Source: a virus. From it: a stretch of DNA of 64,000 bases. Positions 61,343 through 62,791 of the stretch are shown here, one piece after another (within the stretch, counting starts at the first letter, position 1; every line of letters starts with the position of its first letter). A program made the position numbers and the translations under genes. The notes under the pieces were generated by a model. The model searched no databases. It had not been told where the DNA came from and was given only the letters and a program-made list of their open reading frames with translations. Where the stretch lies: the IMG/VR virus record IMGVR_UViG_3300006990_000027, positions 1 to 64,000 of that record; one strand, given 5' to 3'.

Positions 61343-62791
61343 ATGAATACGGACTTAACAACAGAACAAAAAGACTACGCAACGTTTTTACCAGCGTTGA
61401 GTGGTTTCTATGCTACCTTTATAGGTAAGCAACGCAGAGAAGAATACGTTGATAAGAGTCGTATTCCGTATCCTAGTATGGAAAGTATGAATTGGTTAAA
61501 CAAGAAAGAAGGACTGTTTAACTATCATTGGTCATTATATTCCGCAGGACATGCCGAACTAGATATTAATAAAGATGCACCTAAAGAAGATATGGTACGA
61601 GATAGAGATCGTAACAATAGTTGGATGTTAGGTGACTCAGGTGGTTTCCAAATAGGTAAAGGTGTGTGGGAAGGTGATTGGAAAGATCCTAATTGTCCTA
61701 AAGCACAAAAGAAACGTGAGCAAGTACTTGCGTGGATGGACGCTTACATGGACTATGGTATGATACTTGATATTCCGGCTTGGGTAGCACGTTCACCAGC
61801 AGGTGCAAAAGCAACAGGTATTGACAACTATCAAGATGCCGTTAATGCTACACGTATTAACAACGACTACTTTATGAAACACAGAAGCGGTGCTTGTAAA
61901 TTCTTAAATGTATTACAAGGCGAGAATCATGCTGATGCAGAAGATTGGTATCAACAAATGAAAGATTACTGTGATCCTAAAAAGTATGAAAATCATTTTA
62001 ATGGTTGGTCGATGGGTGGACAGAACATGTGTGATGTACATCTAGTATTAAAACGTTTAGTTGCATTACGCTTTGATGGATTACTTGAAAAGGGCAAACA
62101 TGATGTTATGCACTTTTTGGGTACTAGTAAATTAGAGTGGGCAACATTATTAACAGATATACAAAGAGCAGTTCGCAAGTATCACAATGAAAACTTTATG
62201 ATTACATTTGATTGTGCTAGTCCGTTCTTAGCCACAGCAAATGGTCAAATTTATTGTGAACTTGAAACACAAGATAGAAGTAAATGGGTATACAGAATGG
62301 TACCTAGCATAGATGATAAAGCACTTGCTACAGATACTACGCCTTTTGCACAAGCATTTGTACGTGAAGGTAAACATGGAAGTTTTAAAGATTCACCACT
62401 TACACAAAACTTAAAAGCCAAAGATGTTTGCATTTATGCTCCAGGTGATCTAAATAAAATAGGTAAAGAAGGAAAGACATCATGGGATAGTTTTTCTTAT
62501 GCGATCCAAATGGGTCATAATGTATGGAGTCATATCAATGCAGTACAAGAAGCAAACAGACAATACGACAATGGAATCATTCCAAACATGCTTGTCGAAG
62601 AGTCCTTTGACAGGTTATTTTTTAAAGATGTTGTGGAAGCAATATTTGCAACTTCAAACAGAGACGAAGCAAATGCGATAATAGAAGAATTTTCAAGGTT
62701 TTGGATGTCTATTATTGGAACTAGAGGTGCTACTGGTAAGAAGACAGTTAATGCTAGTACACAATACACAAACCTATTCGAGGAGGTATAA
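61343..62791 (+). CDS. dpdA: DpdA-like transglycosylase (TGT paralogue for 7-deazaguanine DNA modification)
   Basis: 482 aa. TGT-fold signature WMLGDSGGFQIG (Asp98), FLNVLQGEN, FNGWSMGGQ and a second catalytic Asp candidate in ITFDCASP (Asp290). The Cys cluster that binds zinc in tRNA-type TGT (CxCxxC...H) is not seen. Phage DpdA enzymes exchange guanine in DNA for preQ0-type bases. Location directly behind gp43 and gp45, and a queD at 11321, support DNA rather than tRNA as substrate. Other queuosine genes (folE, queE, queC) are not in this window. Confidence 0.8.
   Translation: MNTDLTTEQKDYATFLPALSGFYATFIGKQRREEYVDKSRIPYPSMESMNWLNKKEGLFNYHWSLYSAGHAELDINKDAPKEDMVRDRDRNNSWMLGDSGGFQIGKGVWEGDWKDPNCPKAQKKREQVLAWMDAYMDYGMILDIPAWVARSPAGAKATGIDNYQDAVNATRINNDYFMKHRSGACKFLNVLQGENHADAEDWYQQMKDYCDPKKYENHFNGWSMGGQNMCDVHLVLKRLVALRFDGLLEKGKHDVMHFLGTSKLEWATLLTDIQRAVRKYHNENFMITFDCASPFLATANGQIYCELETQDRSKWVYRMVPSIDDKALATDTTPFAQAFVREGKHGSFKDSPLTQNLKAKDVCIYAPGDLNKIGKEGKTSWDSFSYAIQMGHNVWSHINAVQEANRQYDNGIIPNMLVEESFDRLFFKDVVEAIFATSNRDEANAIIEEFSRFWMSIIGTRGATGKKTVNASTQYTNLFEEV

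Follow-up and report, generated by a model that had tools for sequence, protein, structure and literature searches.

A DpdA-like enzyme beside phage replication genes, with associated genes pointing to a probable, possibly sugar-decorated 7-deazaguanine in DNA

The closest described relatives of the enzyme analysed here are the phage DpdA proteins and E. coli Tgt. DNA of Vibrio phage nt-1, which encodes a DpdA2, contains dPreQ0, dADG and dG+, and in phage CAjan DpdA is essential for base insertion (PMC6884629). The precursor enzymes FolE, QueD and QueE lead to 7-carboxy-7-deazaguanine (CDG; PMC13329287). The locus described here resembles that of DpdA1 (9g, Iggy and CAjan) in adjoining DNA polymerase and clamp genes and in its company of FolE, QueD and QueE, and it resembles that of DpdA2 in being accompanied by FolE and Que genes. 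In contrast, QueC belongs to the clusters of 9g and Iggy, which lack a glycosyltransferase, and nt-1 has QueC and ArcS-type chemistry, whereas the family studied here almost never has QueC.

In the window (the whole 64,000-nucleotide stretch that was analysed, DNA of a marine T4-like phage), we found an open reading frame of 482 codons with an ATG start (61343-62791, + strand) that begins 8 bp after a gp45-like sliding clamp gene (60603-61334, +; phrog_12062, homologs annotated as PCNA or sliding clamp). Upstream of the clamp lies a gp43-like family-B DNA polymerase gene (57894-60563, +), recognized because its DNA matches that of annotated phage polymerase genes. The encoded DpdA-like protein has no match in Pfam, PHROGs, NCBIfam or PADLOC, and none in the PDB by sequence or by profile. 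Its AlphaFold2 model, built from an alignment of 48 relatives, has a pLDDT of 91.9, and the best 16 PDB matches found by Foldseek are all tRNA-guanine transglycosylases (TGTs), headed by 1q2r, the covalent intermediate of TGT (E 1e-6). The protein is a TGT-type TIM barrel with the catalytic Asp pair. The motif DSGGFQ occupies residues 98-103. D98 within it is invariant in all 48 diverse relatives, as are D143, H257 and D290, the last of these in FDCASP, while residue 192 varies between Q (40 relatives) and S (8). None of the 48 has CxCxxC, the zinc motif of tRNA TGT. We predict that D98 is catalytic, that D143 and Q192 contact the substrate and that D290 is the nucleophile. With relatives in at least 598 IMG/VR stretches, the gene is not a chance reading frame. 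A preliminary description of this DNA had reported a TGT-fold protein with DSGGFQ and without the zinc cysteine cluster, placed directly behind gp43 and gp45, and it was right on each of these points.

The protein shares the overall fold of Tgt, and by aligned motifs D98, D143, Q192 and D290 correspond to E. coli D89, D143, Q187 and D264. It differs from Tgt in lacking CxCxxC, in being about 100 residues longer and in having only 13% identity; from sequence alone the match to E. coli Tgt is weak (14%, E 0.002), and this alignment pairs FDCASP with the nucleophile motif FDCVMP. When the family was compared by hhalign with a DpdA2 profile (Vibrio phage nt-1, V07, pf16, BUCT-ZZ01, ACP17 and Moby), the match reached 97.3% with E 1.9e-11 and spanned both catalytic motifs, which places homology to a proven DpdA subfamily at the profile-profile level. 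The two families have the same order of TGT motifs (DSGG[FL]Q, an Asp-Pro motif, HxLG and [SF][FY]D) and differ in their N- and C-terminal regions, which cannot be aligned. An HMM of the near family finds neither DpdA2 nor DpdA1, and a single-sequence search does not detect DpdA2. Membership in DpdA1 was ruled out, as the profile comparison with Iggy DpdA1 gave only 0.5%. For DpdA3, no protein of Campylobacter phage CP220 exceeded 3.5% when single sequences were used. Because DpdA2 matches at 97.3% and DpdA1 at 0.5%, the protein appears by profile comparison to be a distinct DpdA subfamily with DpdA2 as its nearest neighbour. It is very probably a phage DNA-guanine transglycosylase of the DpdA type, with homology and active site arguing for DNA as its substrate.

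The window stops inside the gene cluster, and the parent record (G000), itself a fragment of 68,491 bp, continues it. Past the window end, the parent record encodes a 151-aa QueD-fold protein recognized from its fold model (64793-65248), a GT-B glycosyltransferase (65715-66812), FolE (66852-67541; PF01227, E 8e-37) and a YhhQ-type queuosine precursor transporter (67608-68267; TIGR00697, 93.6 bits, above the cut-off of 50.95). The preliminary description had missed the QueD-fold protein and the glycosyltransferase because both lie beyond the window. It had proposed a search for folE, queE and queC; folE lies 4.1 kb downstream of the DpdA-like gene, whereas neither QueE nor QueC was found in the 68.5-kb fragment, and queE turned up in close relatives. 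In one of these (L004), whose DpdA is 98% identical, the same cluster is followed by QueE. With FolE, the transporter and the QueD gene described below, the DpdA-like gene is linked to 7-deazaguanine synthesis genes.

To describe how well this arrangement is conserved, we counted neighbours in IMG/VR loci with sufficient flanking sequence. The clamp adjoins DpdA in 138/138 phage loci with enough upstream sequence, and polB lies upstream in 97 of 100. The QueD-like gene is present in 87/91 DpdA loci, the glycosyltransferase in 85/86, FolE in 68/77 and QueE in 55/67; among 67 neighbourhoods, QueC occurs in one, QueD in six and YhhQ in four. Close relatives inflate these counts: they make up half of the loci, so that the counts are not independent, and the first 80 loci share 79% identity or more with the query. 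The order polB, clamp, DpdA, QueD-like, glycosyltransferase, FolE, QueE is strongly conserved among relatives and is unchanged in divergent loci with 30-60% identity. Linkage to the clamp fits a post-replicative act, but a conserved replication block would show it as well. A conserved 171-aa protein without a Pfam match is encoded between the genes for DpdA and the QueD-like protein (62998-63513, +), and its family is found at about +194 from DpdA in 144 phage loci. The same interval holds a class-III aminotransferase gene (PF00202; 63518-64000, running to 64765 in the parent record) that is no general part of the cluster among relatives. A phosphoribosyltransferase (PF00156; L004:18136-18699) belongs to a family found near FolE, at about +4.3 kb, in 90 loci, and in BUCT-ZZ01 a xanthine-guanine phosphoribosyltransferase adjoins QueD/QueE; the PF00156 enzyme could salvage guanine freed by base exchange.

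The QueD gene within the window (11321-11791, +) encodes a 6-carboxytetrahydropterin synthase of the type found in deazaguanine phages (PTPS PF01242, E 4.7e-14; phrog_2389 'QueD-like', E 6e-40); its TIGR03367 match (E 2.6e-9) is below the cut-off. Its identity to QueD of Iggy, HD01 and similar phages, in which the preQ0 cluster is complete, is about 48%. Two of the zinc His residues of E. coli QueD are F and Y here, which would suggest a dead enzyme; alignment with QueD of Iggy, HD01 and Phosso led us to reject this, as QueD of full-preQ0-cluster phages has the same pattern. The gene is a genuine QueD, as the preliminary description had said, although with 6 of 67 neighbourhoods it is an occasional accessory and no hallmark of the pathway. 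The QueE proteins encoded near DpdA (L004:20666-21445 and others) have CX3CX2F instead of CX3CX2C. The suspicion that this Phe in place of the third Cys of CxxxCxxC breaks the enzyme was softened by a later Cys: of 23 diverse QueE sequences, at least 12 have one 35-51 residues further on, in GCD[TS], so an insertion may have displaced the third cluster ligand.

The 151-aa protein was identified from its predicted fold, since sequence profiles alone gave only 7-9% against QueD. In its AlphaFold2 model (pLDDT 92.6), the best PDB match by Foldseek is E. coli QueD (4ntk), and the first 25 matches are nearly all QueD/PTPS. H42, H68 and H70 are invariant and were equated by eye alignment with the zinc His of QueD, giving a PTPS/T-fold with three zinc His. 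At the place of the QueD catalytic Cys, four residues ahead of HxH, 23/23 members of the family have an invariant Leu (Leu64), and for this reason the modelled protein, a probable QueD-superfamily enzyme, is unlikely to be QueD itself.

QueC is absent from the parent fragment and present in only the one relative's neighbourhood noted above, and a search with PF06508 (QueC) gave merely fragmentary, weak matches in 4 of 18 records. We found that QueC and the QueD-like protein exclude each other among 23 phage records: none of the 15 with a QueD-like protein has a full-length QueC, and none of the 7 with a full-length QueC has a QueD-like protein. Three of the 15 have short, weak PF06508 fragments far below full length, and Moby, with a weak match annotated as QueC, has no QueD-like protein. 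These records are phylogenetically non-independent, so no p-value is given. Because the two proteins are mutually exclusive, the QueD-like protein is most simply read as acting on CDG at the place of QueC; and because QueC is normally missing, the pathway probably bypasses preQ0.

The glycosyltransferase is a retaining GT-B enzyme of GT4-like type by its EX7E motif, whose glutamates E273 and E281 are invariant in 28/28 family members, and by similarity to Pfam Glycos_transf_1, which matches 16 of the 28 (best E merely 4e-4). Against a profile of ten bacterial proteins of the tRNA-queuosine alpha-mannosyltransferase QTMAN, hhalign gave 98.5% (E 4e-15), and 97.8% against one single QTMAN sequence, with the controls waaG at 2% and waaB at 0.1%. 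The likeness lies in the C-terminal GT-B half, with the stretches 'PHR' and 'LGI...EG' common to both; the N-terminal half differs. Since the QTMAN profile also matches waaG at 85% and PF12038 (QTMAN_N) is unmatched, QTMAN is named here as the nearest relative among those tested, a sequence tie that is not exclusive, and we do not claim identity with QTMAN. PF12038 is absent from the Pfam matches of the 28 members, and in 18 bacterial genomes, among them those of seven loci with the glycosyltransferase, none of its matches exceeded the cut-off. Mannosyl-queuosine, the product of QTMAN, is a glycosylated 7-deazaguanosine (PMC12518689). With QTMAN as the nearest tested relative of the transferase, the base in the phage DNA is perhaps glycosylated. 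By analogy, the enzyme would act on a modified base as a sugar acceptor, as the T4 enzymes do, the difference being that the base would here be a 7-deazaguanine. The T4 alpha- and beta-glucosyltransferases are phage GT-B enzymes that place sugar post-replicatively onto hydroxymethylcytosine.

The same genes occur in other phages. In PA5oct, polB, clamp, DpdA, glycosyltransferase, QueD-like protein and QueE form a single run, and in Phosso the polymerase, clamp, QueD-like, glycosyltransferase, FolE and QueE genes stand together with DpdA and QueD elsewhere in the genome. BUCT-ZZ01 has DpdA2, a QueD-like protein and another GT4-like gene that adjoins DpdA2. The glycosyltransferase/QueD-like set accompanies two DpdA subfamilies, since ACP17 and Xanthomonas phage X1 have the same two proteins with DpdA2-type enzymes. 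The PA5oct protein had no match when used as a query in IMG/VR. In the literature we found no measured modification of PA5oct DNA and no nucleoside analysis for phages of this DpdA-like family. The predicted chemistry is testable at once in isolated phages, since Phosso and the PA5oct-type phages have the same genes.

A distant DpdA homolog is also present at 28 bacterial genome loci (L251-L280), mostly of alphaproteobacteria. Most of these adjoin one of two large partner protein families (15 and 10 loci), 16 have a 190-aa single-domain tyrosine recombinase (PF00589), and none has a PADLOC match; they look like an undescribed small mobile element. The glycosyltransferase is present in seven, each time accompanied by a gene that resembles queuosine transporters, and no FolE or QueE is found near them. 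That the DpdA homolog is linked to both of these genes where FolE and QueE are missing nearby further supports a 7-deazaguanine as the acceptor. Elsewhere in the window, the surroundings of QueD (10571-14404) may hold a CMP-Kdo-like sugar route, with the surface or DNA as its possible target. The genes there encode an enzyme of the DAHP/KDO-8-P-synthase family (PF00793, E 4e-52), a cytidylyltransferase for CMP-sugars (PF02348, E 1e-25), a protein resembling sialyltransferases (phrog_4603) and a glycosyltransferase (phrog_1962). A UV endonuclease UvdE gene follows (15107-16219; PF03851, E 4e-38; phrog_8420).

In the pathway that we propose, the base would be made from GTP by FolE, QueD and QueE to give CDG, with QueD encoded by the phage in this case and by the host in most relatives. 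The second QueD-fold protein, without the catalytic Cys, would stand in for QueC and probably alter CDG. DpdA would then join the 7-deazaguanine base to deoxyribose in newly replicated DNA by the base-exchange mechanism of TGT, in which D290 would attack the nucleoside and guanine would leave. Finally, the GT-B glycosyltransferase may attach a sugar to the base, which is the weakest step. That the phage DNA contains a 7-deazaguanine we consider highly probable: fold, DpdA2 homology, the missing zinc motif, replisome linkage and FolE/QueE all agree with the core of the preliminary description. Its choice of preQ0, preQ1 or dADG as products is probably wrong unless the host supplies them, given that queC is absent from nearly all relatives. 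The base is probably derived from CDG instead of being preQ0, preQ1 or ADG; independence from QueC is likely, and we hold it jointly with a 7-deazaguanine in DNA with just slightly less assurance. For glycosylation of the base we see a little under an even chance.

The phage FolE and QueE (with QueD) might instead only boost flux, with QueC coming from the host and DpdA inserting preQ0 as in CAjan and 9g, while the glycosyltransferase and the QueD-like gene act elsewhere. The host may indeed supply QueC; the parent record encodes a YhhQ-type preQ0/preQ1 transporter, the DpdA relative of Vibrio phage 2.275.O is grouped with QueC, QueF and YhhQ, and another relative (L169) has QueC. However, these two QueC-bearing phage relatives both lack the glycosyltransferase and the QueD-like gene, the reverse of the others, and we consider preQ0 in the DNA unlikely. 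Within DNA modification, it is somewhat less unlikely that the QueD-fold protein decarboxylates CDG, so that plain 7-deazaguanine (dDG) is inserted and the glycosyltransferase acts on another base or molecule. The protein lacks the catalytic Cys, keeps three invariant His and replaces QueC, and a homolog adjoins FolE/QueE/QueD in Cellulophaga phage phiST; dDG and dCDG have reportedly been detected in phages by Cui et al. in 2023 (NAR), with a decarboxylase, DpdL, predicted. If this is its role, plain 7-deazaguanine would give the glycosyltransferase no obvious attachment group, yet the glycosyltransferase is linked as tightly as the QueD-like gene (85/86 vs 87/91), it recurs beside two DpdA subfamilies, and a GT4-type gene adjoins DpdA2 in BUCT-ZZ01.

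A modification of host or phage tRNA, in which the enzyme and the glycosyltransferase would make a queuosine-like glycosylated wobble base, would agree with the TGTs as closest solved folds, with the action of QTMAN on tRNA queuosine and with the three tRNAs encoded in the window. However, those tRNAs, tRNA-Arg(TCT) at 2181-2257, tRNA-Leu(TAA) at 4469-4555 and tRNA-Ser(ACT) at 6166-6255, have no GUN anticodon; the zinc motif is absent from all 48 relatives, the profile homology is to DpdA2, a DNA enzyme, and the clamp adjoins the gene at every locus counted. This reading is therefore very unlikely.

Taken together, these data point to a 7-deazaguanine in DNA, perhaps decorated with a sugar and in that form so far undescribed. 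The most far-reaching reading, put at somewhat below even, is that QueC-independent, glycosylated 7-deazaguanine DNA occurs in a large marine group, in PA5oct-type Pseudomonas jumbo phages and in several others, and that the enzyme pair with a queuosine-precursor transporter is also found in small integrase-bearing alphaproteobacterial islands. If true, more enzymes would be available for writing modified DNA, and the chemistry would be new: a 7-deazaguanine formed independently of QueC, perhaps bearing a sugar. Marine T4-like phages would then have a common DNA modification pathway that has so far gone unnamed, and a bulky guanine modification would help explain their nuclease resistance.
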